Of a stretch of DNA of 64,000 nucleotides, positions 3,872 to 37,543 are shown one piece after another. Within the stretch, counting starts at the first letter, position 1, and each line of letters starts with the position of its first letter. The notes below the pieces were generated by a model. It did no database searches. It saw only the letters and a program-made list of their open reading frames with translations, and was not told where the DNA came from. The stretch comes from Pseudomonas synxantha BG33R (GTDB lineage: Bacteria; Pseudomonadota; Gammaproteobacteria; Pseudomonadales; Pseudomonadaceae). The position numbers were made by a program, and so were the translations under genes. The stretch is from NCBI RefSeq assembly GCF_000263715.2, contig NZ_CM001514.1:2466936-2530935 (forward strand), written 5' to 3'.

Positions 3872-4882
3872 ATGTGGGGTTTTCGCAGGTGCAGAAGAAG
3901 TCTCTGGATTGTTGTTGTAGGTCTACTGATTGCATTGCCGGGCTCTGCATTGGCAGGTTGTGTAATCAGCGGAAATAAAATCTATCCAAAAATTACGGAT
4001 GTACCATACGACAGTGGGGGTGTGATATCTACTGTTTGGCATACGGGTACCATGATGCTCAAGTGTGTTCGAATGACCAATGATGACTATACTAACGTCA
4101 TGAGTACGGTTGGTGCCTTTGCCGGCACTTCAGTGATGTTTGAAGGGGTTAATTACAAGCTTTATAAAACAAATGTTAATGATGTTTTCTATTTTGGTAC
4201 TTTTGCAGTAGATAGTGGAGCGGAACAGCAGTTCGGTTCGGTTCCCTACGTAAGTTTAAAAGAAGTAACGGGTCCCGCGACCTCGGCATTTGATATGAAA
4301 GCTTTAGTTAGAGTAAGGTTTTATAGCCCCGGCAAGAGTCTGTCTTCCGGTGTGCGCAATATAGAGCTTTTAGATCTTGTTCGAGGTGATATTAACTCTT
4401 TGAAGCCCGGCGTCTATTCTGGTAGATGGATTATGCAAAGTGAAGGTTTTTCGTTTGTGGCAAAAGGTACGTCGTGCGTACTGACAACGCCCGCCACCGT
4501 CAAATTGAAACAGGTAAGCATCGTTTCTATTCCTGCGATAGGTTCAATGGTGGAAGGGGGGGCGTTCACCTTAAGTTTAGCCTGTAATGCTAGCGCCCCC
4601 TCATTCAAGGTCAGCTACGCGATGACTGACGTTTACAACCCAGCGAATACATCTACTGTCTTAACCCTGGCTGATGAACCTTTGAAGGCGAACGGCATAG
4701 CATTGCAATTATCGGACGAGGGCCGGGCCGTTATTTTTTCTCCACCGGTGAAATCTTCAATGGGTAGTTTGACGCATGGAGCTCTTAGTAAGGCGATGAA
4801 TGTTCAGTACATTCGAACGGAAAAAGTCGCCACGCCCGGAAAAATAACCGCGGCGGTCAGTGTGACTTTTACGTACGACTAG
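3872..4882 (+). CDS. Two-domain fimbrial tip adhesin (copy 1)
   Basis: Secreted protein of 336 residues with a signal peptide of about 28 residues ending SALA before the first mature cysteine. The N-terminal half has the family marks seen in the other adhesins here: GGVIS..WH near 47-55 and FEGVNYKLY followed by DVFYFG. The C-terminal half is a pilin domain with a cysteine pair and the strand VSYAMTDVYNP, ending in an aromatic VTFTYD expected for chaperone recognition. It closely resembles the products at 12994 and, less closely, 37593. It has no chaperone or usher beside it; instead it follows a GldG-like gene by 16 bases. It may use the chaperone-usher genes 5 kb downstream. Its base composition is richer in A and T than the upstream operon. 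Confidence 0.75.
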   Translation: MWGFRRCRRSLWIVVVGLLIALPGSALAGCVISGNKIYPKITDVPYDSGGVISTVWHTGTMMLKCVRMTNDDYTNVMSTVGAFAGTSVMFEGVNYKLYKTNVNDVFYFGTFAVDSGAEQQFGSVPYVSLKEVTGPATSAFDMKALVRVRFYSPGKSLSSGVRNIELLDLVRGDINSLKPGVYSGRWIMQSEGFSFVAKGTSCVLTTPATVKLKQVSIVSIPAIGSMVEGGAFTLSLACNASAPSFKVSYAMTDVYNPANTSTVLTLADEPLKANGIALQLSDEGRAVIFSPPVKSSMGSLTHGALSKAMNVQYIRTEKVATPGKITAAVSVTFTYD

Positions 4883-8256: not shown

Positions 8257-8370
8257 AAACAGGCAATTCATTTGGGTAGTTGATTTTTTTGCGCCCACCA
8301 GCGCCTTGCGCATGTTGAGTGCTTTAGAATCGATAAAAACATGCAAGGTTAAAATGTAGAAGTTTAGGTT

Positions 8371-8403
8371 GGCGTTGCCTCACAGAGGCACGCCAATTTT
8401 TTT
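8371..8403 (+). terminator. Rho-independent terminator
   Basis: An inverted repeat (GGCGTTGCCTC, loop ACA, GAGGCACGCC) with one unpaired base is followed by AA and seven T residues. It lies 115 bases downstream of the aldehyde dehydrogenase and separates that gene from the fimbrial region. Confidence 0.8.
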
Positions 8404-8767
8404 GTCTCGGTGCGGTCGAGTTTCTTTTCCACTGATGATGTGACTCACTTCATGCCTGAATGTGAATCGTGTTAGAAATATCAATGATCCCTCTCGGTGT
8501 GTGATTGGTTTTCCGCTATCGGAATTCCCGTCAGAATATATTTCATCATATTTTATATGCTCTAATTCATCATGTTTTGTTAGGGTTGATGTCGGCAGAG
8601 AAAAATTATTTATACGGTGTAGGAATAGTCCTACAGCGTCTGAGGATCTATCTTTGGTCTGTGTGGATCGCTGCGGTTGGCTGCTTGTGTGAGATGGGTA
8701 GAATTCGGGAACTCTTAAGCAGAGTGAACTTATCTATTTGTTGTTGCCAACCTAGAGGTACACAGTC
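8404..8767 (+). promoter_or_regulatory. AT-rich control region of the fimbrial operon
   Basis: No convincing gene is seen in these 364 bases; short open frames lack a ribosome binding site and coding character. The stretch is rich in A and T and ends at the GTG of the fimbrin gene. It contains the palindrome described separately at 8618-8635. A possible sigma-70 promoter follows, with TTGGCT at 8677-8682 and TAGAAT at 8699-8704 (16-base spacer). Confidence 0.45.
8618..8635 (+). promoter_or_regulatory. RcsB-box-like palindrome before fimbrin gene
   Basis: TGTAGGAATAGTCCTACA has perfect 7-base arms around ATAG. Its 14-base core TAGGAATAGTCCTA matches 12 of 14 positions of the enterobacterial RcsB/RcsA box as I know it (TAAGAATATTCCTA). 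It sits 43 bases before a possible -35 hexamer and 133 bases before the fimbrin start, a plausible activator position. An RcsB-like regulator is encoded 5.5 kb downstream. Confidence 0.6.
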
Positions 8768-9355
8768 GTGTCTATTCCATTCAAACTAATTCTCGCGTCG
8801 TCCATCGTTGGGCTTTTCGCTACATCTGCTATGGCTGCTGACGGTACTATCAATTTTACCGGTGAAGTGACTGCGGCTTCTTGCGGTATCAGTGCCGGTG
8901 CCGGTACCGGTGTCACGGGTACCACCCAGAAAGTTATTGACGTAAAAATGGGTAAGGTGAGCATCGACTCGTTGAAAAATAGCCAGACAGGAATCGTTGC
9001 GGGCTCGGCGATCAATATCAATCTTGATTGCGGTAATACCGCTGCTGGCTTGACCACAGTTAAGGTGAAATTCGATCCGAATTCGGGTAGCGGTGTAGAT
9101 CTTAAAAATAACAATTTGCTGAAAACTACGGGCACTGCTACTGGCGTGGGGATCGGTCTGTATGACGCCAGCAATAACCTGATTAATTTGGCCGGTAACG
9201 GTTCGTTTGACTCCCCTTTGATCAAGGCCGGTACTGATCCAGATATTAAATACTCGGCTAACTTGAACTTGCGTGCTTCTTATGTCGCCAACGGTGACGT
9301 AGTCGTACCGGGTACGGCCAATGGCAACCTGCCGTTTACGCTGACCTACGAGTAA
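8768..9355 (+). CDS. Major fimbrial subunit, chaperone-usher type
   Basis: Structural pilin of 195 residues, secreted through Sec and polymerised on the surface. A signal peptide of 23 residues ends AMA before ADGTINFTG. The mature start is classical for type 1 pilins: INFTGEVTAASCG with the first cysteine, the second in LDCGN, and a C-terminal LPFTLTYE ending for chaperone strand donation. The GTG at 8768 is supported by GAGG ten bases upstream. It heads the order fimbrin, chaperone, usher, adhesin, and a strong stem-loop follows its stop, as expected if it must be made in excess. It resembles P. aeruginosa CupA1/CupD1-type fimbrins, but I do not assign a specific Cup name. Confidence 0.92.
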   Translation: MSIPFKLILASSIVGLFATSAMAADGTINFTGEVTAASCGISAGAGTGVTGTTQKVIDVKMGKVSIDSLKNSQTGIVAGSAININLDCGNTAAGLTTVKVKFDPNSGSGVDLKNNNLLKTTGTATGVGIGLYDASNNLINLAGNGSFDSPLIKAGTDPDIKYSANLNLRASYVANGDVVVPGTANGNLPFTLTYE

Positions 9356-9364
9356 GTCATTTGT

Positions 9365-9390
9365 TGGAGAAGCACGTAAGTGCTTCTCCA
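9365..9390 (+). promoter_or_regulatory. Intercistronic stem-loop after fimbrin gene
   Basis: An 11-base-pair perfect stem (TGGAGAAGCAC / GTGCTTCTCCA) is closed by the loop GTAA, a GNRA-type tetraloop. No T-run follows, so it is not a standard terminator. Placed between fimbrin and chaperone genes, it probably protects the 3' end of the fimbrin mRNA or attenuates downstream expression. Confidence 0.75.
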
Positions 9391-9412
9391 GCTTCTGCAC
9401 AGGCAAAATATA

Positions 9413-10132
9413 ATGAAGCTGCTATCCAAATGTTTTTTGGCGGGATGTGTGTTGCTGTTCAGTGGTGTTTCAAGTGCGGGTATTACATTGGGTGGTACAC
9501 GTGTTGTTTATCAGGAGAAGCTTAAAGAAACCTCAATCATGGTCAAGAATGATGGTGATAAAGACATCATGGTTCAGTCATGGATAGAGCCAGCGGCCAA
9601 TGTTTCAGAACAAGATGTGCCTTTCGCTTTAACCCCTGCACTTAGTCGTCTCGGGGCCAGTAAACAACAAAGTTTGCGCATTTTTTATGCGGGCAAAGGC
9701 TTGCCAGCGGATAAAGAGTCTGTGTTCTGGCTAAACGTACAAGAAATACCGCAAAAATCAGAATCGGATAATACGTTACAGATCGCCATTCGCCAACGTA
9801 TCAAGATTTTCTACCGTCCTACAGGCCTTATAGGTTCGGAGGAGGAGTCCGCCAAGCAACTGAAGTGGCAGCTGATTCATGAGTCCGGAAAGGCGTGGCT
9901 TGTCGCAAGTAATACATCGCCATTTTATATCTCATTTGGAGAGGTTTATTTAAAGCAGTCAGGCAAGCGCTATACGGTTCAAGCAGAAATGATCAGCCCT
10001 GGCGCAACGTTAAAATTCCCGGTTGATTCGGGAGGCATATTGGCCTCCAAAGAGCGGTTTAGCGTTGAGTATAAAGCCATTAACGATTATGGGGCACCAA
10101 TAGCTTATGTGGGTGAAGGGGCTGCTGGTTAA
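9413..10132 (+). CDS. Periplasmic fimbrial chaperone (PapD/FimC family)
   Basis: Binds fimbrial subunits in the periplasm and delivers them to the usher; 239 residues. A signal peptide of about 21 residues ends SSAG. The first domain shows the family marks GITLGGTRVVYQ, the R near the start of strand A, and FWLNVQEIPQK. The conserved RIKIFYRPTGL follows, then the second immunoglobulin-like domain. I choose ATG 9413, which has AGG nine bases upstream and a clean signal peptide; the frame continues upstream without better sites. It is the only chaperone in the window, so all adhesins here probably depend on it. Confidence 0.92.
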   Translation: MKLLSKCFLAGCVLLFSGVSSAGITLGGTRVVYQEKLKETSIMVKNDGDKDIMVQSWIEPAANVSEQDVPFALTPALSRLGASKQQSLRIFYAGKGLPADKESVFWLNVQEIPQKSESDNTLQIAIRQRIKIFYRPTGLIGSEEESAKQLKWQLIHESGKAWLVASNTSPFYISFGEVYLKQSGKRYTVQAEMISPGATLKFPVDSGGILASKERFSVEYKAINDYGAPIAYVGEGAAG

Positions 10133-10197
10133 TCTTTCAGGTTTTCTGTTTGGTTGCCGCTTAAGAGTAAGCGTTGATAGTTGTGAGGCATAATCTT

Positions 10198-12693
10198 ATG
10201 TGGGTGTTTCGATCAGGGAGTCGGCGCACGATGACGCTGCTCGGGAGTCTTGGGTCGACGGGTTTTTTTGCCCTCGGCGCCTCGGTTCCCTCGGTTGCGT
10301 CTGCGGTCGAATTCAATAGTGCATTTCTGAGTAAGCAGGGTGCGCCGGTTGAGTTGAAGTATTTCGAGCAGGGAAGTTCGGTTGCCCCTGGTCACTACAA
10401 TGTCGATATTTATCTAAACCAGCAACTCATCCTGCGCCAGCGTATTGAGTTTGCTACCAATGGTAAAGACAATGAGGTCAAGCCGCTCATACCTCTCTCG
10501 GTGCTCAAGGCAGTGGGCGTCAACGTCGTTCGCCTGGAGCAGGAAAAGCTGATTGCCGCGAAGGCAGATGATAAAACATTGATTGACGTAGAGTCGCTTG
10601 CGCCTGGTGCGGGCGTGGAGTTCGACGTCACGGCACTGGCTTTGCAGATCAGCATGCCTCAAGCGTATATCCAGCGCCAGTCTCGTGGGTATGTTGATCC
10701 GTCATTATGGGATGACGGTATTACTGCGTTCTACTCAAATTACCAGACCAATTTCAGCCGCAATATCAACCAGGGCTACAATAGCGATTACCGCTATGTC
10801 GGTCTGCGCAACGGCTTGAATATTGGCGCATGGCGCCTGCGCAATGAGTCGTCGATTTCAGGTTCTACGGGGGTACGTGACAAATTCACCAGCAACCGTA
10901 CTTATGTAGAGCGCGACATTCGCAGCCTTAAAGGTAAGCTCGCGGCGGGGGAGTTGTACAGCCAGGGTGAAATCTTTGACAGCGTGAGATTCAAAGGCGC
11001 GCAGCTATCCTCGGAATTGGGCATGTTGACCGATGATGAGGTGGGCTTTGCTCCGGTGGTGCGAGGTATTGCGGAAACGAATGCGACGGTTGAAATCAGC
11101 CAGAACAACTACGTCATCTATTCGGCCACTGTCCCTGCGGGCGCATTTGAGATCAGCGATATCTACCCCAGTGGGTCCAACGGCGACCTGAGCATCAAGA
11201 TCATTGAGGCTGACGGGCGCGAGCGCCAATACTCCCAGGCCTATTCTTATCTCCCGGTCATGACCCGTCGTGGTAACACGCGCTACAGTCTGGCGGCAGG
11301 TGAATATTCTAATGAAGGCCAAGCAGCGCCTAAGTTTACCCAAGGTACCTTGGTGTACGGGGTGACGGATAATTTCACTGGCTACGGTGGCCTGATAGCG
11401 GCCCAGGCGTATAAGGCATTAAACTTGGGGGTGGGGGTTAACTCTCCGTGGGGTGGATTATCCTTTGACGTCACCAACAGCAGTTCGCAAGAGCGTTCCG
11501 GGCGTAAAAACGTCGGCCAGAGTGCGCGATTCCTTTATTCCAAGACACTTAGCCAGACCGATACCACCTTTACGATGGTCGGTTATCGCTACTCCACTGA
11601 GTCCTATCGCACCTTCAGTCAACATGTTGAAGAACAAGAGCACGTAGCTACACCTTATTATGGCCGACAGAAAAGTCGCTTTGATGTGAACGTCAACCAA
11701 TCTCTGGACGGACGTGGCTCATTGTTTTTGAGCCTCGGCGAAACCAGTTATTGGAACAGGCAAGGCAGTACCCGGCGCTGGCAGTTCGGCTACAACGGTA
11801 ACTATTCGGATATCAGCTACAGCTTTGCGGTATCCCGTACCGAAGGGCAGGCTGGGAGCCAAGGTGCCGATAATCAGATGACGGCATCGTTCAGCATTCC
11901 GTTTGGCGACACTCGCCGCTCGCAGCGTCTGTACACCAGCGTTACCACCTCAAACCAGGGTGAGTCTGCGATTCAGACAGGACTGTCCGGTAACTTGAAT
12001 GATGAAAACACTCTAAATTATTCAGCGCAAGGCAGCCACAGTAAAACCAGCGGCAGCTCTGCCAGTTTCGGTGTCAACTGGGATACGCCGACTGCAAAAG
12101 TCAGCGGTAACTATGGGCAGGGACGTGATAACAAGCATTTGGATGTCGGCGCGTCAGGTTCGGTTGTCGTTCACAGCGGTGGTGTCACGTTGGGGCAGCC
12201 CGTGGGTGAAACATTTGCCTTGGTCGAAATACCTGATACCAAAGGTATCGGTATTGATTCATCCAATGCGGTAAGAACCGATAGCAAGGGTTATGCGGTT
12301 GTGCCTTATGCGCAGCCCTATCGTTATAACTGGATTAATTTGGATACCAGTACGATGGGCAGCAGTATCGAAGTGGCGGAAAGTTCGAAGAAAGTAGTGC
12401 CGACTCGCGGCGCAGTTGTTAAAACTCACTTTGAGGTCGAGTCAGGGCGTAGACTTCAATTTAACTTAACGGACGGCAAAGGTGCGCATTTACCATTTGG
12501 CGCGCAGGCATATGACGATGAAGGGAAGGTTCTTGGGTTGGTGGATAACGCTTCGAAACTACTTGTTTTTGGTTTGAAAGATGTGGGCACATTCAAAGTC
12601 AAATGGGGTAGTCTGGCGTGTGAAGTTAGATATGATCTGCCGCCGGTTAATAAAGAGTTGATGTACGAGCAGTACAGCGGTGTGTGTTTGTAG
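10198..12693 (+). CDS. Fimbrial outer-membrane usher (PapC/FimD family)
   Basis: Outer-membrane pore that assembles chaperone-subunit complexes into fimbriae; 831 residues from ATG 10198, supported by GAGG ten bases upstream. A signal peptide ends near SVASA. VEFNSAFLSKQG starts the N-terminal chaperone-binding domain. The barrel region contains the family signature LGMLTDDEVGFAPVVRGIA (near 280-298), and the C-terminal domains include GAVVKTHFEVESGR and a terminal cysteine pair. ATG 10231 is an alternative start giving a shorter signal peptide. The length agrees with ushers (800-870 residues). Confidence 0.93.
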   Translation: MWVFRSGSRRTMTLLGSLGSTGFFALGASVPSVASAVEFNSAFLSKQGAPVELKYFEQGSSVAPGHYNVDIYLNQQLILRQRIEFATNGKDNEVKPLIPLSVLKAVGVNVVRLEQEKLIAAKADDKTLIDVESLAPGAGVEFDVTALALQISMPQAYIQRQSRGYVDPSLWDDGITAFYSNYQTNFSRNINQGYNSDYRYVGLRNGLNIGAWRLRNESSISGSTGVRDKFTSNRTYVERDIRSLKGKLAAGELYSQGEIFDSVRFKGAQLSSELGMLTDDEVGFAPVVRGIAETNATVEISQNNYVIYSATVPAGAFEISDIYPSGSNGDLSIKIIEADGRERQYSQAYSYLPVMTRRGNTRYSLAAGEYSNEGQAAPKFTQGTLVYGVTDNFTGYGGLIAAQAYKALNLGVGVNSPWGGLSFDVTNSSSQERSGRKNVGQSARFLYSKTLSQTDTTFTMVGYRYSTESYRTFSQHVEEQEHVATPYYGRQKSRFDVNVNQSLDGRGSLFLSLGETSYWNRQGSTRRWQFGYNGNYSDISYSFAVSRTEGQAGSQGADNQMTASFSIPFGDTRRSQRLYTSVTTSNQGESAIQTGLSGNLNDENTLNYSAQGSHSKTSGSSASFGVNWDTPTAKVSGNYGQGRDNKHLDVGASGSVVVHSGGVTLGQPVGETFALVEIPDTKGIGIDSSNAVRTDSKGYAVVPYAQPYRYNWINLDTSTMGSSIEVAESSKKVVPTRGAVVKTHFEVESGRRLQFNLTDGKGAHLPFGAQAYDDEGKVLGLVDNASKLLVFGLKDVGTFKVKWGSLACEVRYDLPPVNKELMYEQYSGVCL

Positions 12694-12993: not shown

Positions 12994-13977
12994 ATGAAAT
13001 TTCTCAAAGCTATTATTGTATTGCTGGCCGCATATGCTCCATTCGTAGTGGCGGCTGGGTGTGTGCAAGAGTCGGGGTTTAGCCTCGCTCCATGGATCCC
13101 ACCTATAGCCAATAACACGGGAGGCATGTTGTCGAAATCATGGCACACTGCAGAGCTTCAAGTTAGCTGCAATGGTATGAGCGGTTCTTATCTCTTGAGA
13201 AATGAGATAACGCCGGCGGGCAACGATTCCGGCAAGACGCAGTTGTTCGAGGGCGTTTCTTACAAGCTATACACGACGAGCGAGCGTGATGTTTTTTATT
13301 TTGGCGGTGTGGCAGGGCCTGACGGAGTTCTTCGCCCGTTTGGTACATCATACTCCCACGCTATATACCCCCCCGTGATTACCGAATTCAAGCTTCCTGC
13401 TACTGTGAGAATCAAGTTCTATTCTCCGTCAAAATCGATGACGCCTGGTGTGTACACAATTAATAGCGCTGGGTTAGTCAAAGGTAAGATTACCTCTGTG
13501 GGGTTCGTTGCCGAATCAGGCATGAATCTTTCGGCCTTCTCATTTATTGTGAATGGTCCTTCATGCACACTGGCAATTCCTGCTGAGTTAAAGCTGAAAT
13601 CAGTAAATCTCTCGGCAATTCCTATGCCAGGGGATAGCAACGAGGCTGCCAGCTTTCAACTAGGGTTAACCTGTGCCGGTAGTACACCAGCTTATCAGGT
13701 CAGCTATTCGATGAGCGATGTTAACGATTCAGCCAACCAGTCCTCGACGCTCACATTAGCTGATGCGGCGAAAAAGGCCTCGGGTGTCTCATTACAGGTG
13801 GTCGATGGCATGACACCAGTTAACTTCGGTTCTACGTCGAAACGCCTGCTCGGGAGTATGCCAAATGGCGGCGGCATGATAAGCAAATCCATGAGCGTTC
13901 GCTATATACGAACCTCGACCATCGCGCGCCCTGGTTCAGTGAGGGCAGGTGTGACAGTTACGTTGTCCTACAAATAA
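12994..13977 (+). CDS. Two-domain fimbrial tip adhesin (copy 2)
   Basis: Probable receptor-binding tip protein of 327 residues. A 20-residue signal peptide ends VVAA before GCVQ. The N-terminal domain has GGMLSKSWH, then FEGVSYKLYTTSERDVFYFG, almost the same block as in the protein at 3872. The C-terminal pilin domain has a cysteine pair (PSCTL, LTCAG) and VSYSMSDVNDS, ending VTVTLSYK for strand exchange. GGGAG lies eight bases before the ATG. It is the last structural gene of the chaperone-usher cluster, but a 300-base spacer separates it from the usher. The receptor is unknown; the N-terminal halves of the adhesins here differ much more than the C-terminal halves. Confidence 0.82.
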   Translation: MKFLKAIIVLLAAYAPFVVAAGCVQESGFSLAPWIPPIANNTGGMLSKSWHTAELQVSCNGMSGSYLLRNEITPAGNDSGKTQLFEGVSYKLYTTSERDVFYFGGVAGPDGVLRPFGTSYSHAIYPPVITEFKLPATVRIKFYSPSKSMTPGVYTINSAGLVKGKITSVGFVAESGMNLSAFSFIVNGPSCTLAIPAELKLKSVNLSAIPMPGDSNEAASFQLGLTCAGSTPAYQVSYSMSDVNDSANQSSTLTLADAAKKASGVSLQVVDGMTPVNFGSTSKRLLGSMPNGGGMISKSMSVRYIRTSTIARPGSVRAGVTVTLSYK

Positions 13978-14125: not shown

Positions 14126-14755
14126 ATGGGCAACATAGTCATCGTCGACGACCACCCCCTGATGCGCATGGCTGTGCGCGTGATGCTCGAGCAAGAAGGC
14201 CACTCGATTGTCGCCGAAGTCGACAACGGCGTGGACGCGGTGGAAATTATCCGAAAATTGCTTCCAGATCTGATCGTTCTTGACCTGAGTATTCCGAAAA
14301 TGGATGGCCTCTCCGTCATCGCGCACTTGAAGGCTATCGGCATTTCCACCCGTGTGTTGATCCTCACCTCTGGTGACACTCGCAACTTCGCCATGCGCTC
14401 CTTACAAGCCGGTGCGGCAGGTTTTGTCTGCAAAGATGACAATCTGGACGAACTGATAGGCGCGGTGAAGGCAGTGCTGTCGGGTTACAGCTATTTCCCG
14501 GCCAATACCATCCACCAGTTACGCGACAATACCCAGGCCGCCAGCGAGGAAAGCCAGCTGATTGCGCAACTGTCCGATCGTGAGATCACCGTGTTGAAAC
14601 TGCTGGCGCGGGGTATGGGCAACCAGGCCATTGCCGATGAGTTGATGATCAACCACAAGACGGTGAGCACATACAAAATCCGCCTGCAACGCAAGCTGAG
14701 TGTAGAAAACCTGATTGCCCTGGGTGAGTTGGCCAAGCGCAATGGCTTGGCGTAG
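14126..14755 (+). CDS. rcsB: RcsB/RocA-like response regulator
   Basis: DNA-binding response regulator of 209 residues. The receiver domain has the acidic pair Asp8-Asp9, the phospho-acceptor Asp53 in VLDLSIP, Thr81 and Lys103. A LuxR/NarL-type helix-turn-helix follows near 146-205 (LSDREITVLKLLARGM, HKTVSTYKIRLQRKL). It lies between the fimbrial genes and two hybrid kinases with HPt domains, an arrangement that recalls P. aeruginosa RcsB beside cupD and RocA1 beside cupB. It is the expected final acceptor of the phosphorelay and the expected reader of the palindromes at 8618, 19440 and 36691. That DNA link is an inference. A frameshifted paralogue lies at 36915. Confidence 0.85.
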   Translation: MGNIVIVDDHPLMRMAVRVMLEQEGHSIVAEVDNGVDAVEIIRKLLPDLIVLDLSIPKMDGLSVIAHLKAIGISTRVLILTSGDTRNFAMRSLQAGAAGFVCKDDNLDELIGAVKAVLSGYSYFPANTIHQLRDNTQAASEESQLIAQLSDREITVLKLLARGMGNQAIADELMINHKTVSTYKIRLQRKLSVENLIALGELAKRNGLA

Positions 14756-14766
14756 TCGTTCACAGC

Positions 14767-17700
14767 CTAGGGTTCGAGCATATTTTGAATGCGCCGTAAC
14801 TCCTTCTTCACCTGCCTGACCCGCGCCGGTACGTCCTCGGCGCCGGTTCGGCAGCCATGCTCTAGTTCCTTGCACAACCCAAGCAAATAATCATTGCGCA
14901 TCAATGCCGCGCTACCCCTCAAACGGTGAGCCAGCTCGGCAATGCCGGCGAGGTCCCGTGTCTCACTGAAGTCACGCAACTGTTCGATATCCTGTTGATT
15001 GCTGCGCATCAATTCAGCTTGCAGTTGTTGAATGATTGCCGGGTTGCCACCGGTAATCGGCTGGAGCAGATTCATGTCGAATTCAGGCCCATGCAGCGTC
15101 GGTTTGGCGCCTTTATAGGCTGGCTTATCCGCTGGCTCCAGTGATGCCAGGCGCTGTTCGAGGATGGCCAGGCTGATGGGTTTGATCAGACAGTCGCCCA
15201 TGCCAGCATTAAGACAGCGGTCCATTTCTTCCTGCTGGGCGTCGGCTGTCAGCCCCAGAATCGTCAATGCACTGGCGTTGCGTTGCTGTTCTTCCTTGCG
15301 GATCGCCAGTGTCAGTTCTACTCCGTCCATGACCGGCATGTGGTAATCCGTGATAAGCCAGTCAACCGGAAAGGCACGCCAGGCCTCCAACGCCTCCAGT
15401 CCATTACTGGCTTCAATCACCTTGCAGCCCAGGTACTCCAGCTGCGCGCGCAGCATTTGACGGTTCAAGGTGTTGTCGTCTGCGATCAGCACTCGCATGG
15501 CCCAGCTCGGAGTAGCCTCGGAGGACGCGGGCAATGGCAGTTCTTCTTCAGGCAGCGGTTCCAGAAGCTTGAGCTTGAGCGTTACATTGACCGTAGTGCC
15601 TTGCCCCGGCGTGCTGGTAAGTTCCAGGCGGCCACCCATCATCTCGCACAGCGACCGCGACACAACCAACCCGAGGCCGCTCCCGCCATGGACCGAGAGG
15701 TCCGACTGAATCACTTGCGCAAAGGGGCGAAACAGCGTCTGCCGGTCTGCCTCACTGATGCCTATGCCGGTATCCTGAACTTGCAGATGCATGTTGAGTG
15801 TCTGCCCGTTCAACACGCGGCATACCAAGCGGATGACGATACGGCCGCGCTCAGTGAACTTGATCGCATTGCTCACCAAATTCGACAGTACTTGCTTGAA
15901 GCGCAGAGGGTCGATAGAGACGTCCAGGGTGGTACCGGCGTCGATTTCCAGAATCAGGTCCAGTTTCTTCTTTCTCGCCAGCCCTTCGAATACCCGCGCC
16001 ACCATCTCCACCAGATTCTTGAGGTTGGCCCGGCGTGGTGAGAAGCTCAAGTGCCCGGATTCAATGCGTACGATATCCAGCGTATTGCCCAACAGTTCAA
16101 GCAGGTTCTTGGCGGCCGTGTAGGCCACGTCGATGTTCACCCGATCCAGTACGCCATGATCAGCGCGTTTGAGCGCTAACTCTAATGTGCCTATCACCGC
16201 GCTCATGGGCGTGCGGATTTCGTGGCTCATGGTCGCAAGAAATTGGGTTTTGGCGCGGCTGGCCTCGTCAGCCTGGGTTTTAGCCTGCTGCAGTTGCTCA
16301 ATCAGTTGATGATGTTGCGAGATGTCCTGCCAGCCGCAGATCACTCCGGCGATCGTGCCATTAGAGTCACGAAACGGCTGAATCCAATGCTCGATGAAGT
16401 GGGGTTGTCCCTCGATGGTGATCTGCAGTTGCTGTTCGATGGCGTTGCCATCCTCCATCGCTTGCAGATAACTCTGGTGAAGCGAGGGCGCAAGTTCGAT
16501 ATCACCGTGGTTCGTTTGCAACGCGGTTTTACCCAGCACTTGGGATTGGCAGAGCTTCATGACATGTTCATAGCTGCGGCTGCATGACAGCAGGCGTCCT
16601 TCGCGGTCGCGTACATATACCGGCACGGGCATGGCATGGTTCAAGGTTTGCAGAAACTCCAACTGATCATTCAGGGCTTTTTCAGCGGTGACTCGGCGCC
16701 GTATCTGACGGCGTAATTGCACGATTCGAATGATCGAAACCAGCAGCACCAGCAATGCGCAGCAAATGATCTGCAGGATTACCAGTTTGTAGTCACGCCA
16801 GTTCTGGCCACTCATGGCCGCATTGGCACGCCAGCGAATGGTGATTGCATTAAGCTCGTCAGGTGGGATGCTCAGCAGGGCTTTATCCATGATCGACTGC
16901 AGCTCGGTTTCGCCTCGGCGCATGGCGAAGTTGGCGGTGGCCGCCTGGCCGTCGACGACACCAGCCACGCGCAGTTCTTTTTCATAGAGGCGCGCGGTGT
17001 AGTAACGAGCCATGGATAAGGTCATCAACACAGCGTCGGCGTCGCCATTAACCACCATGCGCATGGCCTCCAGGTTGTTTGCCGGGGTAATCAACTGCAC
17101 CGTGGGAAAGCCTTTGCGAATGCTGTCGATCAGCACATGCCCCTGGACAATGGCCAGGCGCTTGCCGGCCAAAGCATTGAGACTCGAACGCTCTCGGCCC
17201 GATTCAGCCGTCGGCGCGACCAGCGCAAACGAGCTGGTTGCGAATGGATGGCTGAAACGAATATGGTTCAAGCGCTCCGGGCTGGCCGTCAACACGGCTA
17301 AATCAGTATCGCCGTCGCGTAAAGCGTCCTGAATGCCTTCAAAACTCGAGGCGCGTTGAATCTCGAACTTGAGCCCGGTGCGTTGGGTGATGATCTCGAA
17401 CAAATCGGATATCACACCGTTGAAGCGGCCCTTGGCGTCAAAAAATGCCGAGGGTGCCATGTCATCGTTGATCATGAAGCGCGCCACTGGGTGCTGGGCC
17501 AGCCAGCGTTTTTCCTGGGCGGTGAGGTGTACATTATCGTCCGGCATCACCGTGCCGCCACCGGTCCAGCGCTTGATCAGGTAGCTCATGCGCAGTTGGC
17601 CAAATGTGGTCAGTGAAGCATTGAGAATGCGTAGCAGGCGTTGATCTTCCTGCTTGAGTAGAAACCCATAGCCACCTGAGTCGATTTTCACAAACTGGAT

Positions 17701-18399
17701 AAATTTGAGATAGCTGAAAAAGCTATGGTTGACCAGATAGTGGGTGGTTACCGAGTCGCCCAGAAACACGTCGACGTTCTGGAACGCGACGGCGGCCAGG
17801 GCTTGCGCGGTGGTGCCGTAGGTAAAAAACTGTGCATGAGGATAGCGGTCGGTCAGTAGCGCGTATGGCAGGTAGTCCTTGGAGACTGCTACGGTTAGTC
17901 CATTGAGATCTGAGGGAACCGCAATGTCGCTGTCCTGGCGTTGATAGAGTACGGGGGCATTGACGCTGTACGGCAGCGTCACCACCGTGTCAGAAGAGTC
18001 GCGATCATAGTCGCTGGACCGGCTGATCAAGTCGATTTCGCCGGCTCGCAAGGCGGCCATCGCTTGCCCTCGGTCAGCAAACCCGACGACTTTGATATCC
18101 AAGCCCAGTTGCTGCTTGAGCATTGTCGCCACGTCAGCGCTGATGCCCTCGTAATCACCGTTGCCGTAGACCATGTCGAAGGGCAGGGTGAACGGTGCGA
18201 CCACGCCCAGGGTGAGGACACGCCGTTGGCGCAACCAGGCCCAGTCTGCTTCCGGTAATTGCAGCTTTTGTGGTTCCTGACTCACTTGGCTAAGCAAGTG
18301 AAGGGGCTGTTGCGGCATGGGTATCGTTGCGGCACCGCCGTACGATACAGCCGGCAGCAGTACGGTGAAGAAAGCCACGAAGGCTTTGAGCGTGGACAT
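14767..18399 (-). CDS. pvrS: BvgS-type unorthodox sensor kinase, PvrS/RocS1-like
   Basis: Membrane sensor of 1210 residues that starts a phosphorelay. In order: signal peptide (1-22), two periplasmic SBP_bac_3 venus-flytrap domains (about 45-275 and 290-520), a transmembrane helix (about 532-552), a PAS domain (575-690), HisKA with the phospho-histidine in ATMSHEIRTP near 724, an ATPase domain with NAIKF and GGSGLGL, a receiver with Asp in ITDYHMP, and an HPt domain with AHRLRGSA near 1156. I start it at ATG 18399 because a signal peptide begins there; an in-frame GTG lies 21 codons upstream. The order matches BvgS/EvgS and P. aeruginosa PvrS and RocS1. The gene is convergent with rcsB, its likely partner. 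The ligand is unknown. Confidence 0.87.
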   Translation of the reverse strand: MSTLKAFVAFFTVLLPAVSYGGAATIPMPQQPLHLLSQVSQEPQKLQLPEADWAWLRQRRVLTLGVVAPFTLPFDMVYGNGDYEGISADVATMLKQQLGLDIKVVGFADRGQAMAALRAGEIDLISRSSDYDRDSSDTVVTLPYSVNAPVLYQRQDSDIAVPSDLNGLTVAVSKDYLPYALLTDRYPHAQFFTYGTTAQALAAVAFQNVDVFLGDSVTTHYLVNHSFFSYLKFIQFVKIDSGGYGFLLKQEDQRLLRILNASLTTFGQLRMSYLIKRWTGGGTVMPDDNVHLTAQEKRWLAQHPVARFMINDDMAPSAFFDAKGRFNGVISDLFEIITQRTGLKFEIQRASSFEGIQDALRDGDTDLAVLTASPERLNHIRFSHPFATSSFALVAPTAESGRERSSLNALAGKRLAIVQGHVLIDSIRKGFPTVQLITPANNLEAMRMVVNGDADAVLMTLSMARYYTARLYEKELRVAGVVDGQAATANFAMRRGETELQSIMDKALLSIPPDELNAITIRWRANAAMSGQNWRDYKLVILQIICCALLVLLVSIIRIVQLRRQIRRRVTAEKALNDQLEFLQTLNHAMPVPVYVRDREGRLLSCSRSYEHVMKLCQSQVLGKTALQTNHGDIELAPSLHQSYLQAMEDGNAIEQQLQITIEGQPHFIEHWIQPFRDSNGTIAGVICGWQDISQHHQLIEQLQQAKTQADEASRAKTQFLATMSHEIRTPMSAVIGTLELALKRADHGVLDRVNIDVAYTAAKNLLELLGNTLDIVRIESGHLSFSPRRANLKNLVEMVARVFEGLARKKKLDLILEIDAGTTLDVSIDPLRFKQVLSNLVSNAIKFTERGRIVIRLVCRVLNGQTLNMHLQVQDTGIGISEADRQTLFRPFAQVIQSDLSVHGGSGLGLVVSRSLCEMMGGRLELTSTPGQGTTVNVTLKLKLLEPLPEEELPLPASSEATPSWAMRVLIADDNTLNRQMLRAQLEYLGCKVIEASNGLEALEAWRAFPVDWLITDYHMPVMDGVELTLAIRKEEQQRNASALTILGLTADAQQEEMDRCLNAGMGDCLIKPISLAILEQRLASLEPADKPAYKGAKPTLHGPEFDMNLLQPITGGNPAIIQQLQAELMRSNQQDIEQLRDFSETRDLAGIAELAHRLRGSAALMRNDYLLGLCKELEHGCRTGAEDVPARVRQVKKELRRIQNMLEP

Positions 18400-18508
18400 G
18401 AAAACGTATACCTGACTGCAAAATGCCAAGTACGCCGCGCTGGCCGGCTCAAGGTCGACCACGGACGTGGCGGGTGGGGTAGGAAGTTAGAGCGATGTGA
18501 ATGGGCGT

Positions 18509-19357
18509 TCAGACTGACGTCAGCACCACCTGTGAGCCCGCAATGTATTCAAGGATGTACGGCAGCAGCGCGGTATCCGCCATCGGCGGGGCGATGGCAT
18601 ATCCCTGCACAATGGATACGCCCAGGGTTTTGAGCCGCTTGAGCTGGGCCGGGGTCTCGACACCCTCGATCACCAGCGACACACCCAGGCTGGCTGCCAG
18701 GCTGACGGTATGGGCGACAATGGCGGTGCAGGCCGAGTGCGTGTCGAGTTTGTGTACGAAACCGGCGTCGAGTTTGAGCTCGGTGAAAGGCACATCACAC
18801 AAGCGCTCCAGTGACGAGAAACCGGTGCCAAAGTCATCCATGGACAAACCGCAGCCCAGCAGCTTGAGTTGCAAGAGGTTGTTCATGGCGACACTGCACG
18901 GATTGAGCGTGCCGGTTTCGGTGATCTCGAAGATGATGCTTCGGGCAGGGCACTCATGTGCACGCAGCAGCACTTTAATCGCCTGGCTCAGTATGGGGTT
19001 GCTGAGTTGAGACGGTTGAAGGTTGAATGACATCGTCAATGGCAGGTTCAGACTGGCCAGTTTCTGGCGCAGGATCAGCCCTTGCTCGAAGAGGCGCAGG
19101 AACAGCTCATCCATCAGGTCATGGCGTTCCAGGGCCTGTAGAAAATAACCGGGCGTCAACAGGCCGTTGTGAGGGTGCCGCCAGCGGGCGAGAACTTCCA
19201 AGCCGCTAATCGTACCCGTTTTCAACGAAAGCTGAGGTTGGTAAAAACCCACAAACGCGTGATCCGCCAACCCTTGGCGCAGCTCCTGGGCGTCGGGCTC
19301 TTGAACCTTGGGGGCGGCTGGAATCTGACTTAGGCTGAGTGCGGCTGAGGTTTTCAT
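18509..19357 (-). CDS. EAL-domain c-di-GMP phosphodiesterase, PvrR/RocR-like without receiver
   Basis: Predicted enzyme of 282 residues that hydrolyses cyclic di-GMP. All expected catalytic residues are visible: Glu54 in GLEVLARW (EVL in place of EAL, tolerated in active enzymes), Asn112 in FNLQPSQL, Glu144 in FEITET, Asp174-Asp175 in DDFGTGFSS, Lys195, Glu231 in EGVET and Gln251. PvrR and RocR, which accompany PvrS and RocS1, carry an N-terminal receiver domain; here only about 30 residues precede the EAL domain. The start ATG has AGGG eight bases upstream, and no receiver domain is encoded in any frame before it. The gene lies 110 bases downstream of the sensor gene start on the same strand and is divergent from rcsC. 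Confidence 0.9.
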   Translation of the reverse strand: MKTSAALSLSQIPAAPKVQEPDAQELRQGLADHAFVGFYQPQLSLKTGTISGLEVLARWRHPHNGLLTPGYFLQALERHDLMDELFLRLFEQGLILRQKLASLNLPLTMSFNLQPSQLSNPILSQAIKVLLRAHECPARSIIFEITETGTLNPCSVAMNNLLQLKLLGCGLSMDDFGTGFSSLERLCDVPFTELKLDAGFVHKLDTHSACTAIVAHTVSLAASLGVSLVIEGVETPAQLKRLKTLGVSIVQGYAIAPPMADTALLPYILEYIAGSQVVLTSV

Positions 19358-19439: not shown

Positions 19440-19453
19440 TAGGACTAATCTTA
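19440..19453 (+). promoter_or_regulatory. RcsB-box-like sequence between EAL gene and rcsC
   Basis: TAGGACTAATCTTA matches the palindromic pattern of the box at 8620-8633 in the outer TAGGA and C(C/T)TA positions and agrees with the enterobacterial RcsB box at about 10 of 14 positions. It lies in the 195-base divergent spacer, 83 bases from the EAL start and 100 bases from the rcsC start, so it could control either gene. Confidence 0.42.
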
Positions 19454-19552: not shown

Positions 19553-22500
19553 ATGGCACCGCGTATGCGCTATAGGCAATCGAGCGTCGGTAAACTTGAA
19601 AAAGTCTCGCTGCGCCTGGGTTTCGGCCTGTTGGTGTCTTTTTTGTTGCTAGTGTTCTTCGCCGTGGCCGGCTATTGGGTGACCTACAAGGTCATTCGCG
19701 GGGAAGTGCTTAAAGTCGATTATCATTTTATGCGTTTCGTGGGTCGTGCTTACGACCATGAAATATTTCTGTTGCGGGCCATTAAGGCCAGCAGCCAATT
19801 GGAATACAAACCGGTATTTAACCCTGAAGCCTATGTGGTCAAGCATACGACGCAGGGCAACATGCGCATTTATGAAGGCCAGGCGTCCCAGGTCGCCACA
19901 ACGTTTTCGGCGGCATTGCCTATCAAGGCCGCCGACGCGCATGACGGTGTATTGAGCCAACAGTTGCAATTGGGGGGTGCGCTGGCAAATGTGTATGGCG
20001 ACTTCTGGAGCGGTTCAACCTTCGCGTCGCCGCAAATGTTCGTGTTTGATCTGTCGAGCGATTTCGACATCGCGATTCCTGCGATCAGCCCCCAGCCTCA
20101 TCCAGGCCAGCGCAATTTTTCCCAAGTCTTGAACGAGGTCAAGCAATCTGCGCGTCAGCTGCCGCCCTTGAGCAGTGACTTGCTGGTGCGCTGGCGGCCC
20201 AGTCATTTCTTTTTGGGCGGTGAGGACATTCAACAAATACTGGGCTACGTCTCCGGTCGCATTGAAGAGGACCAGTGGGAACGAAAGGGCCCCCCCAGGG
20301 AATTGGTGGCCGCTACCTTGCTGTATTGGGACGAATTTGACACGCCCGGGGTAAGGATAGAAAAGCAGTTTTTTGATCTGCCGCTGTACAGCAATGTCGA
20401 CATCGTCGCGCCGGACGGCACGCGTGTAGTGGGCGGCAAGTCGCCACAGATCTACCAATATGAAAGCGGCTTCCATTTCACTACTTCAGGGCTGCTGATC
20501 AAGCGCAGTGCCGGGGATATGGGCGCCTGGCAGGCCCTGTATCGTATCCCCTATAAACAACTGATCCTGGATGCACGTTGGCAGTTGCTTGGGCTGGTCG
20601 GCTTGTTGGGTTTATGCGTCATCAGTGGCTGGTCGGTCATCCGATGGTATCGACGGCGCATCGTGGTGCCGGCGAGTAATGACTTTCGGGAGTTATTGGT
20701 CAACCATGACTTCAACCTGTCTTTGTTGCAAACGGTGCCGCTGGCGTTGTGTGTGGTCAAGGGGCCGCAGATCGAACTGGTGACGCAGAACAGTTTGTAT
20801 ACGCAATGGTTGGGCGAGCCGACCGAGTTTGCACAAATGATGGCGCTATGGCCGCTGTTTGAGCAAAATAAACCCCTTACCGGTGAAGGCTGCCTGCTGG
20901 TCAATCAGCGGGTCTTGCACGTGCGCTATACACCCACCGAATATCTGGGCGATAGCGTGTTGCTGTGTACCTTCACTGATATTTCTTCCCACCGCGAAGC
21001 ATCTGCATCGTTGCTCCTCGCCCGCCAGGCGGCGGATGCGGCTAATGAACAGAAAAGCAACTTCGTCGCCACCCTGAGCCACGAGCTACGCACGCCGTTG
21101 TACGGTGTGCTGGGCACGCTGGAGCTGTTGGGCATGACCTCTCTGGATGAACGCCAACGTGGCTACCTGCGCACCATTGATAGTTCGTCCGCGGTATTGA
21201 TGCACTTGATCAGCGATGTGCTGGACCTGTCCAAGATAGAGGCGGGCCAGTTGGTTCTGGAGTCCGTCGCGTTCCAGCCACTGGAAATGCTCGAAGAAAC
21301 TGTACGCGGGTTCTCGGCGATGGCTGCGAATAAAGGGCTGGCGCTTTACTGCTGTGTTGACCCTCGCGTGCCGAACCTGGTGCAGGGCGACCGCCTGCGT
21401 ATTCAGCAGATCGTCGGCAACCTGCTCAATAATGCGATCAAGTTCACCCAGAGCGGGCATGTCGCAGTCTTCCTGTCGCCTATCGGAGTCTGCGCAGGCG
21501 AGGTGAGCCTGCAATGGCGCGTGGTCGATAGCGGCCCAGGGATGTGCGAAGTGGTGCAGGCGCAACTGTTCGAGCGTTTTTACCAGGCCGACAGCAAACA
21601 TCACACCGTCGCAGGCACCGGGCTTGGGCTGCCTATCTGCGCCCACCTCAGCCAGATGATGGGAGGTGCGTTGACCGTGGACAGTGCGCCGGGTGAGGGC
21701 AGTACATTCATATTTGAGTTGAGCCTTGAAACGCTAGAGGCCCCCCGATCTTTATTGCCCCAGTTATCAGGCAAGTGCATCGATGTTCGTACGCCCTATG
21801 CAACCTTGACCGATAACCTGTGCGCCTGGCTGGAGTGGCACGGTGCACACACTACCGTAATGGGCGATGACGCGGGCGCAGTACCTGATGCCATCTTGAC
21901 GGTAATGCCGCAAGAGGTCGAGGTGGGACGCTCAGGCGCGACCAACGTCTTTGCTCAGCATGATTTCAGTAGCACGCCGCAGTTCATCGGCCAGGACCTG
22001 ATGGTCAACCAGAACAGTGTCGGGTCCATGTGCCGTGCATTGGCGATGGCGATCAGCGGTGAACCGGAGGTTGCGTTGGAGCAGACTCCGGTGACGCACC
22101 TGCAGCTCGGTCTGAAAGTGCTGGTTGCGGAAGACAACCCGGTCAACCAGGTGCTGATGAAGGAGCAACTGGAGCGCATCGGCTGTGCGGTAGATGTTGT
22201 GCCCGATGGTGTCCAGGCGTTGCGGCAGTTGGAACTCAAGACCTACGACGTATTGTTGACGGATGTGAACATGCCGCTCATGGACGGCTATGAACTTGCC
22301 GATACGTTGCGCCAGCGCGATGTGGATATGCCGATTATCGGCGTCACCGCCAATGCGCTGCGTGAAGAGGGCGAGCATTGCATCCGCGTGGGCATGAACA
22401 ACTGGTTGTCCAAACCGATGAATATCCAGGGGCTTTATCTGTGTTTGCGCAGTGTGCTTGATCCTACGGTATACCGAGTCTGCGAGATCGCGGCACAGGC

Positions 22501-22831
22501 AAGCGATGCGGGCGGGATAAACGTGCCTGAACGCATGCTCGAACTGTTCATTGAAACTATCACGCGAGATTTAAGTGAGCTTAAAGCGCTGGATCCTGAT
22601 CAGGGCAGTCATCAGGCTGTCCAGTTATTGCATCGGATTCGAGGTGCATTGGCTGTCGGCAAAGCTAAAACACTGATTCTGGTGTGCCGTGAGTTGGAGG
22701 CATTAGTTGCGCGGAATGGGTTGGCCCGCACCCATGAAGATGTCGAGGTGTTCGTCGGGCGAGTCGAAGTAGCAATTCTGGTTTATAAGCGCGCCACTGC
22801 CATAACGGATAAAATGGAGGATCAGTCATGA
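19553..22831 (+). CDS. rcsC: RcsC-like hybrid histidine kinase with HPt domain
   Basis: Inner-membrane sensor of 1092 residues. A transmembrane helix lies near 22-48, a periplasmic domain of about 300 residues follows, and a second helix lies near 346-366. HisKA has its histidine in ATLSHELRTP near 508, the ATPase domain shows NNAIKF and GTGLGLP, the receiver has VLVAEDN near 855 and Asp near 902 in LLTDVNMP, and a C-terminal HPt-like domain has LLHRIRGA near 1026. Enterobacterial RcsC lacks the HPt, which there sits on RcsD; here both are fused. ATG 19553 lacks a clear ribosome binding site; two tiny open frames precede it (19511-19543 and 19540-19575). Likely target: the RcsB-like protein at 14126. 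Confidence 0.87.
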   Translation: MAPRMRYRQSSVGKLEKVSLRLGFGLLVSFLLLVFFAVAGYWVTYKVIRGEVLKVDYHFMRFVGRAYDHEIFLLRAIKASSQLEYKPVFNPEAYVVKHTTQGNMRIYEGQASQVATTFSAALPIKAADAHDGVLSQQLQLGGALANVYGDFWSGSTFASPQMFVFDLSSDFDIAIPAISPQPHPGQRNFSQVLNEVKQSARQLPPLSSDLLVRWRPSHFFLGGEDIQQILGYVSGRIEEDQWERKGPPRELVAATLLYWDEFDTPGVRIEKQFFDLPLYSNVDIVAPDGTRVVGGKSPQIYQYESGFHFTTSGLLIKRSAGDMGAWQALYRIPYKQLILDARWQLLGLVGLLGLCVISGWSVIRWYRRRIVVPASNDFRELLVNHDFNLSLLQTVPLALCVVKGPQIELVTQNSLYTQWLGEPTEFAQMMALWPLFEQNKPLTGEGCLLVNQRVLHVRYTPTEYLGDSVLLCTFTDISSHREASASLLLARQAADAANEQKSNFVATLSHELRTPLYGVLGTLELLGMTSLDERQRGYLRTIDSSSAVLMHLISDVLDLSKIEAGQLVLESVAFQPLEMLEETVRGFSAMAANKGLALYCCVDPRVPNLVQGDRLRIQQIVGNLLNNAIKFTQSGHVAVFLSPIGVCAGEVSLQWRVVDSGPGMCEVVQAQLFERFYQADSKHHTVAGTGLGLPICAHLSQMMGGALTVDSAPGEGSTFIFELSLETLEAPRSLLPQLSGKCIDVRTPYATLTDNLCAWLEWHGAHTTVMGDDAGAVPDAILTVMPQEVEVGRSGATNVFAQHDFSSTPQFIGQDLMVNQNSVGSMCRALAMAISGEPEVALEQTPVTHLQLGLKVLVAEDNPVNQVLMKEQLERIGCAVDVVPDGVQALRQLELKTYDVLLTDVNMPLMDGYELADTLRQRDVDMPIIGVTANALREEGEHCIRVGMNNWLSKPMNIQGLYLCLRSVLDPTVYRVCEIAAQASDAGGINVPERMLELFIETITRDLSELKALDPDQGSHQAVQLLHRIRGALAVGKAKTLILVCRELEALVARNGLARTHEDVEVFVGRVEVAILVYKRATAITDKMEDQS

Positions 22832-36652: not shown

Positions 36653-36914
36653 GTCTGGAGGTCTGCGGGTAGTATCTGGAATTATTATGAGTAGGATTAA
36701 TCCTACGCCGATTATGGTTATATCTGGTGCGCTACTAAGATTCCTGCGGTGGTAGCAGTCGCTGATTCGGGTAGACTTTTCGAACTCTTTGACCGATGGT
36801 TTTTTATTGTCTTTTTACACAGTGCAAGAGAATGCAATATTCCACCGTGCAGCATGTTTGGTGGCAGGGTATCAAGTTTGTTTTGTTATCGGCATCTCTT
36901 TGAAAGGTAAAGTA
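36653..36914 (+). promoter_or_regulatory. Control region of the second rcsB-like gene
   Basis: This is an AT-rich, non-coding stretch before the ATG at 36915. It contains the 16-base perfect palindrome GTAGGATTAATCCTAC at 36691-36706, an RcsB-box-like site (core TAGGATTAATCCTA). The palindrome lies about 210 bases before the start codon. Confidence 0.5.
36691..36706 (+). promoter_or_regulatory. RcsB-box-like perfect palindrome
   Basis: GTAGGATTAATCCTAC is a perfect palindrome. It shares TAGGA...TCCTA with the site at 8618-8635 and differs mainly in the central bases. It lies upstream of rcsB copy 2, which suggests autoregulation or cross-regulation by the RcsB-like protein. Confidence 0.55.
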
Positions 36915-37543
36915 ATGGGTAACATAGTCGTTGTCGACGATCATCCATTGATGCGCATGGCAGTAAGGGTAATGCTCGAGGGGAAGGGCACAGCATCCTG
37001 GCTGAAGCCGATAGCGGTGTTAACGCGCTGGAGGTCATTCGTAAATTACTGCCTGAACTTGTCGTACTGGATTTAAGTATTCCCGAAATGGGCGGTTTGT
37101 CGGTCATCTCTAATCTGAAATTGATTGTTGTTTCCAGCAAGGTGCTGATTCTGACCTCTGGTGAGTCACGTAATTTTGCAATTCTGGCGTTGCAAGCAGA
37201 TGCCGACGGGTTTGTATGCAAGGACGATAATCTCGATGAACTGATTGGAGCCGTAAAAGCGGTACTATCGGGTTATAACTATTTTCCGGCCAATACGATT
37301 CATATACTGCGCGATAACTCAGAGGCTGCCAGCCATGAAAGTATGCAGCTGAGCCTGTTGTCAGACCGCGAGATCACGGCCCTTAAACTATTGGTCTGTG
37401 GTTTGGGTAATCAGGATGTCGCCGGGCAATTGATGCTTAGCCACAAGACCGTCAGTATTTATAAAGTCCGCTTGCGGCGCAAGTTGAATGTGGCCAATCT
37501 CATTCATCTGGTTGAGCTGGCCAAACGAAATGGTCTTGTGTGA
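36915..37543 (+). pseudogene. Frameshifted second copy of the RcsB-like regulator
   Basis: The gene opens like copy 1 (MGNIVVVDDHPLMRMAVRVM) with AAAGG eight bases before the ATG. After LEGKG near 36986-36990 the frame is lost by one base; restoring one C in GGGCACAGC recovers HSILAEADSGVNALEVIRKL, then VLDLSIPEM with the phospho-acceptor Asp. The rest is intact to the end, including DGFVCKDDN and the LuxR helix-turn-helix (LSDREITALKLL, HKTVSIYKVRLRRKL). A single lesion suggests recent decay, a sequencing error or slippage near a G-rich run. If repaired, it would be a 209-residue RcsB paralogue adjacent to an adhesin. Confidence 0.85.

Follow-up and report, generated by a model that had tools for sequence, protein, structure and literature searches.

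The palindrome at positions 8618-8635 of the window, that is, of the whole 64,000-nucleotide stretch of Pseudomonas synxantha BG33R DNA analysed here, is predicted to be an operator of a RocA/BvgA-type response regulator, most likely an activator operator, and we give this reading a probability of roughly 0.8. Somewhat less confidence is placed in the product of the regulator gene at 14126, rather than one of its paralogues, being the main binder. The site itself, its recurrence, its placement, a preference for a 22-bp spacing and the protein families involved are computed results. The palindrome, TGTAGGAATAGTCCTACA, has perfect 7-base arms flanking ATAG and lies 5' of a cup fimbrial operon, whose fimbrin ORF starts with GTG at 8768, 132 bases from the palindrome end. 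The sites and genes of the locus are as follows.

8618..8635 (14-bp core 8620-8633), no strand: predicted primary operator, TGTAGGA-ATAG-TCCTACA, based on pattern counts and on a block conserved among the five cup promoters that were aligned, of which three are nearly identical
8642..8655, forward strand: second, weaker site (predicted), GAGGATCTATCTTT, which matches at 7 of 10 arm bases and follows the primary core at an offset of exactly 22 bp
8677..8704, forward strand: predicted promoter, TTGGCT-16-TAGAAT
8768..9355, forward strand: fimbrin (PF00419), from the ORF list and a domain match
9380..10132, forward strand: fimbrial chaperone (PF00345/PF02753), start uncertain
10174..12693, forward strand: outer-membrane usher (PF00577), start uncertain
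12994..13977, forward strand: fimbrial adhesin-like protein (PF00419)
14126..14755, forward strand: EvgA/BvgA/RocA-type response regulator, the proposed operator binder
14767..18462, reverse strand: BvgS/EvgS/RocS-type hybrid kinase (two SBP_bac_3, PAS, HisKA, HATPase, REC, Hpt)
18509..19357, reverse strand: EAL protein lacking a receiver domain; PvrR is the nearest NCBIfam model, with a score under its cut-off
19440..19453, no strand: predicted second operator, TAGGACTAATCTTA, one mismatch, in the divergent EAL/hybrid-kinase promoter region, kept in P. paralactis (L016), P. khavaziana (L017) and genome G017 (L105)
19553..22831, forward strand: RcsC-like hybrid kinase with Hpt domain
36692..36705, no strand: predicted third operator, TAGGATTAATCCTA, exact, about 210 bases 5' of the second regulator gene
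36915..37543, forward strand: second regulator gene of the same type, frameshifted, sharing 72% identity with the first across its open portion

The enterobacterial RcsB box is TAAGAATATTCCTA, from which the palindrome core differs at two of 14 positions. A preliminary description of this DNA had reported the perfect 7-base arms, the 12/14 match to the RcsB box and the position 5' of fimbrin, all of which were borne out, and the regulator gene it had placed 5.5 kb away is present (14126-14755). Within the window, TAGGANNNNTCCTA occurs three times with at most one mismatch, compared to 0.36 expected from shuffled sequences; one of 100 shuffles reached three. The exact pattern was found at three places in the whole 6.30-Mb genome, two of them within the 64-kb window, and the backwards control at none. 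The third exact genomic copy (L042:11299, G000 position 11299) lies within a 1321-aa minus-strand ORF, and an Rfam search at this position gave no match. With one mismatch, 55 places were found genome-wide versus 89 for the backwards control, and thus the motif is without genome-wide enrichment. It is the placement of its good copies that distinguishes the palindrome. A genome-wide regulon drawn from the pattern alone was rejected as unusable, the one-mismatch matches being fewer than in the control. Also set aside was a one-mismatch pair 460 b apart (G000:C1:3272173): inspection of the adjoining ORFs by eye revealed no such regulator or fimbrial gene. Upstream of the 14126 regulator gene itself, no site with up to two mismatches was found within 1.5 kb.

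The family of the regulator was analyzed by comparison with PDB chains and NCBIfam models. Among the PDB chains the 14126 product matched EvgA with 123 bits and RcsB with 60 bits. The NCBIfam models gave the same order, with 159.6 bits for EvgA (cut-off 251), 157.8 for FimZ (cut-off 271) and 63.1 for RcsB (cut-off 235). All these scores are below the curated cut-offs. By the curated RcsB model the product is thus not placed in that family. EvgA and FimZ are the best characterised relatives found for it in these searches, but by the same test it is an orthologue of neither. Because EvgA scores far above RcsB in both comparisons, this NarL/FixJ-class protein is classified by sequence as belonging to an EvgA/BvgA/RocA-type system rather than to RcsB, a class that follows from EvgA ranking first, BvgA and RocA1 themselves having been outside the comparison. 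The RcsB-like label of the preliminary description is therefore withdrawn. The adjacent kinase (14767-18462) has the BvgS/EvgS architecture, with two periplasmic solute-binding domains, kinase, receiver and Hpt domains; EvgS is its best NCBIfam match (470 bits), under the equivalog cut-off of 1995. The EAL protein of the locus comprises 282 aa and an EAL domain only, rather than the REC-EAL architecture of RocR. The genome encodes five open RocA/BvgA-type regulators at 41% identity or more, in addition to the frameshifted one.

A comparison with RcsB loci bears directly on the first interpretation. The genome does possess an RcsB at another cup locus. At the usher locus at 4.09 Mb the regulator ranks as RcsB (PDB 159 bits; NCBIfam 181, below the cut-off of 235), its gene is preceded by kinase and EAL genes, and the fimbrial promoter carries TAAGAATCGTCTTA, which by eye agrees with the palindrome at 11 of 14 bases. 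This locus and the next 20 of 43 matches were compared. TAAGAATCGTCTTA precedes cup genes in five of the 21 loci, all close relatives, and a one-mismatch form was found in five more; among the other 11, some have two-mismatch forms (two with TAGGA at left) and some none. Two RcsB loci (L239, L240) carry TAGGAATCGTCTGA, indicating that one side of an RcsB-type box can accept TAGGA. TAGGA-N4-TCCTA, however, does not occur in the 18,333 intergenic bases of the 21 RcsB loci. Moreover, TAAGAATCGTCTTA has a fixed core, whereas orthologues of the window operon keep the arms and vary the centre, and the sequence at 8618-8635 differs from TAAGAATCGTCTTA in its arms. The 12/14 agreement with the RcsB box does not discriminate, since the BvgA site TAAGAAATTTCCTA and the RcsB box themselves share 12 of 14 bases. 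An RcsB box as originally named is rejected in view of the regulator family and the RcsB loci. In the broader form, a box bound by the RcsB of this genome or by an RcsB-like function of the 14126 protein, the reading is unlikely, as the neighbouring regulator does not rank as RcsB. Since the box at the RcsB loci differs and TAGGA-N4-TCCTA is absent there, two operator classes seem to serve the two cup operons of one genome, the palindrome belonging to the BvgA/RocA class.

Conservation was examined at eight loci whose regulator is at least 77% identical: the window and loci of P. paralactis (L016), P. khavaziana (L017), P. edaphica (L018), P. sp. Au-Pse12 (L019), P. chlororaphis (L020), P. spelaei (L021) and genome G017 (L105). 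An exact copy precedes the cup operon in all four loci having one (window, L016, L105 and L020). P. khavaziana and Au-Pse12 have no more than an adhesin-like gene there, preceded by an exact copy, and P. edaphica, represented by a short contig with no cup genes on it, has a one-mismatch copy. P. spelaei has no copy at the corresponding position. All six loci holding both the EAL and the RcsC-like gene carry a copy between them, with one mismatch in four loci, exact in Au-Pse12, and in P. spelaei as two one-mismatch copies at a distance of 22 bp. When five cup promoters were aligned, 16 of the 17 columns of the block TGTAGGA.TAGTCCTAC showed no variation. Three of these promoters are nearly the same over their whole length; those of G017 and P. 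chlororaphis are otherwise diverged. The palindrome centre varies among the cup-operon orthologues (ATAG, CTAG, CGAA) and the arms are constant. Absence of the motif at orthologous fimbrial operons had been named as an outcome that would speak against it; it is kept, and exact in 4/4 loci with a cup operon. Hence the operator-like palindrome beside response-regulator genes stands as described, while its RcsB label does not. In five other genomes with regulators 56-63% identical and away from cup genes (L108-L112), no site was found within 3.5 kb; in L111 an exact site lies 3.9 kb off. In P. khavaziana (L017:8289-8560), the cup promoter and operator are intact and the fimbrin reading frame breaks off early, no chaperone or usher being found between the broken fimbrin and the regulator gene.

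Further support is provided by loci that were selected independently of the motif. The BvgS-type kinase was searched in 59 Pseudomonas genomes, 51 of which gave a match, and the 60 best-scoring of 92 kinase matches were used (143,345 intergenic bases). The window's own kinase, its G017 orthologue, two loci of the same genome (L154, L155) and the 28 weakest matches were left out. Genes were called with a simple codon-usage caller and labelled by BLAST matches to the window proteins; as this caller missed the 1321-aa ORF, a few of the stretches counted as intergenic may be coding. In this DNA TAGGA-N4-TCCTA occurs 31 times as an exact match and is the commonest 5-base half-site at that spacing, followed by AATTG with 22 occurrences. 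The other 29 letter orders of TAGGA together account for 15 occurrences, and TAGGA at spacings of 0-3 and 5-10 for none. For all but one of the 31 exact sites, a gene start is no more than 300 bases away. When up to one mismatch is allowed, an intergenic site is present in 48 of the 60 loci, compared to a mean of 3.4 and a maximum of 9 for the 29 other letter orders. In 43 of these 48 loci a site is located 52-240 bases 5' of a regulator gene; other sites precede fimbrin, EAL or small receiver genes. Twelve loci, four of which have cup genes, lack a site at this threshold; ten of the twelve contain an intergenic 8-of-10 match, in five cases before a called regulator gene. After removal of look-alike contexts the 31 exact sites are reduced to 16, tied with AATTG-N4-CAATT (16). 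Of the 22 AATTG sites, however, 21 lie before a single conserved neighbouring gene. TAGGAAATTTCCTA was found exactly in four kinase loci (L169, L208, L217, L218). The two loci of the same genome outside the 60 carry a one-mismatch site (L154) and a two-mismatch site before the regulator (L155).

The absence of genome-wide enrichment among one-mismatch matches speaks for a palindrome arisen by chance. Such an origin is extremely improbable in view of three in-place copies in one window, the retention in relatives despite diverged flanks, and the kinase-selected loci with their letter-order controls.

Two other features of these loci were noticed. In 21 of the 60 kinase loci (L171:175, L174:19595 and 19 more), AATTG-N4-CAATT lies 44-52 bases 5' of the same conserved gene (MSDNLLSIPCTTIK...) and is probably the operator of another regulator. 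At L147:9960 (G295) an exact palindrome is located between a pair of regulator genes and a putative secretion operon, with a BvgS-type kinase after it; the palindrome may also serve non-fimbrial targets.

Of 482 plasmid records, six, all named loci retrieved with the regulator, were examined. Five of these carry a one- or two-mismatch site that lies 72-179 bases 5' of a gene for a regulator or fimbrin; they come from P. aeruginosa, Enterobacter, Pantoea (three regulator genes), Rahnella and Cupriavidus. On the P. aeruginosa plasmid a one-mismatch site lies between rocR and the regulator gene. The P. lurida plasmid locus has none near at up to two mismatches. At two mismatches the plasmid loci contain other, apparently stray matches too, up to seven in Cupriavidus, so that single plasmid cases are weak.

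In Bordetella the BvgA site of fhaB consists of inverted heptads, the 14-bp palindrome TAAGAAATTTCCTA, and BvgA binds as head-to-head dimers 22 bp apart, the last abutting the -35 element (PMC7250471). The spacing of sites was analyzed by scoring matches (out of 10) at 146 offsets, from -80 to +80 without -7 to +7. A first set of 80 sites, of which ten were hand-added (window-type loci, L143, L147) and in which tandem partners score each other, was thinned to 50 by filtering at 60% ungapped identity. In this set +22 was the best offset (mean 4.24/10, z 4.4; 18 of 50 sites scoring at least 6), with an all-offset mean of 2.48, and -22 the second (mean 3.88, z 3.5). The analysis was repeated with 37 of 67 sites, excluding hand-added sites and tandem partners. 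Here, +22 was still first (mean 4.38, z 4.4), ahead of +64 (z 3.2), with -22 in third place (z 2.7). In the window, 8642-8655 is the sole other position scoring at least 7 within 8257-8830, with a chance of about 0.0014 per position; the +44 position scores 3/10, no match. The promoter match (8677-8704) is weak on its own, one being found with 1.3 expected by chance. Its -10-like TAGAAT (8699-8704) is also kept in L016, L017 and L105 and absent in L020 (P. chlororaphis). Transcription would then start near 8711, with the two palindrome sites centred near -85 and -63. At Bordetella fhaB, BvgA has its strong site at -88.5, followed by another at -67.5 (PMC2225982).

A search for GTAGGANNNNTCCTAC across 298 genomes of the genus gave matches in 102, compared to 50 for the backwards control, about a twofold difference, and 30 loci were fetched. 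A LuxR-type gene with Autoind_bind and GerE domains lies downstream in nine of the 30 fetched palindrome loci, the largest class, and in this genome a LuxR relative (37% identical) has a one-mismatch TGTACGACGTGTCCTACA about 70 b upstream. The palindrome could on this account be the site of a solo LuxR-type regulator, autoinducer-binding and encoded beside fpr, that uses TGTAGGA-N4-TCCTACA. The LuxR set, of only nine non-redundant sites, has no peak at exactly +22 or -22, with -23 fifth among the offsets. Nor would a LuxR site explain why the palindrome recurs at kinase-selected loci and beside signalling genes in the window; we regard this account as quite unlikely. Cross-talk between LuxR-type and RocA/BvgA-type regulators at the palindrome is nevertheless possible. 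The global regulator GacA is likewise of the NarL/FixJ class. The GacA box is TGTAAG-N6-CTTACA, and the palindrome shares 10 of 12 positions with it. However, most variants at related loci retain GG/CC (TAGGA...TCCTA), and the sites go together with local genes of the EvgA/RocA type, which makes a GacA-type box read by GacA very unlikely.

For the favoured reading, a RocA/BvgA-type operator, the following mechanism is proposed. The palindrome would serve as the high-affinity operator for a RocA/EvgA/BvgA-type phosphorelay encoded in the locus itself. Phosphorylation of the regulator (14126-14755) would be controlled by the BvgS-type kinase (14767-18462), which might in turn be modulated by the RcsC-like kinase (19553-22831). 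Once phosphorylated, the regulator would bind 8618-8635 as a head-to-head dimer, and at least one more dimer would join it by cooperative binding 22 bp further downstream (8642-8655), in the direction of the -35 element. Together the bound dimers would recruit RNA polymerase and start transcription of the fimbrial operon, from putative centres (about -85 and -63) that resemble those at fhaB (-88.5 and -67.5). The copies at 19440 and 36692 could be bound by the 14126 protein or by paralogues, providing feedback on their own signalling genes. Binding, phosphorylation, activation rather than repression and the identity of the binding paralogue are what we infer here.

The closest parallel in site organization is Bordetella BvgA/fhaB. 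Nine of 10 arm bases of the palindrome equal the fhaB primary site, both are 14-bp inverted-heptad sites near a promoter, and an additional site follows at a 22-bp spacing, as in the family-wide +22 peak and, in the window, at 8642-8655, with no copy at +44; the estimated upstream position of about -85 compares with -88.5 (PMC2225982), and a BvgS-type kinase is the partner. Here, by contrast, genus and target are different, EAL and RcsC-like partners are present, and the sites are predicted from sequence. In gene content the locus resembles the Roc system of P. aeruginosa (RocS-RocA-RocR, cupB/cupC), where a BvgS-type kinase, a RocA-like regulator, an EAL protein and a cup operon likewise occur together, except that the EAL protein of the window has no receiver domain. 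The RocS kinases have been termed BvgS homologues (PMC3083521). With the cupD RcsB box of P. aeruginosa PA14 and enterobacteria the palindrome shares a similar 14-bp form before a cup fimbrin gene; the regulator family differs, and RcsB loci of the genus use TAAGAATCGTCTTA or close forms.

The preliminary description knew of no defined operator in pseudomonads. This needs amending: mutations have been used to test an RcsB site in cupD1 of PA14 (PMC3842833), and consensus motifs for RocA1/2/3 were derived from DAP-seq (data set GSE179001), with their letters in a supplementary figure (PMC12051241). An operator of the family is thus partly in print. The letters of the RocA motif were not found in our literature search and may still be published, the 2021 DAP-seq paper not having been retrieved; a text search of papers for TAGGAAATTTCCTA returned none. 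We infer that the window palindrome and the published RocA motif are the same. To this the present analysis contributes the palindrome spelled out in letters, the finding that it recurs across Pseudomonas, a preferred spacing of 22 bp, and its distinction from the box of the RcsB loci.

The adhesion regulators concerned form a widespread Pseudomonas family, for which these data provide a letter-level candidate operator; they also suggest that the BvgA rule of inverted heptads with 22-bp phasing holds outside Bordetella. Separating the operator classes, TAGGA-N4-TCCTA with a RocA/BvgA-type regulator and TAAGAATCGTCTTA with RcsB, would allow targets to be predicted at such loci and corrects a likely mislabelling. 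A more far-reaching idea, which we consider doubtful, is that a single palindrome is read by every RocA/BvgA-type regulator in a Pseudomonas genome and also by a LuxR-type regulator that binds an autoinducer, making adhesin promoters hubs of competition. If so, several phosphorelays and a receptor for cell density or plant signals would compete for the same 18 bases at adhesin promoters, and 22-bp satellite sites would give the phosphorelays selectivity.

Two further fimbrial features of the window were noted. A lone fimbrial adhesin-like ORF (PF00419) with a weak coding signal lies at 3872-4882 behind ABC-transporter-like genes. The second regulator gene (36915-37543) is frameshifted about 25 codons in, and the P. 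paralactis copy (L022) breaks in the same way, so the frameshift is old or shared. Downstream of it lies a fimbrial adhesin-like gene (37593-38588), and the two together look like the remnant of a second cup locus.
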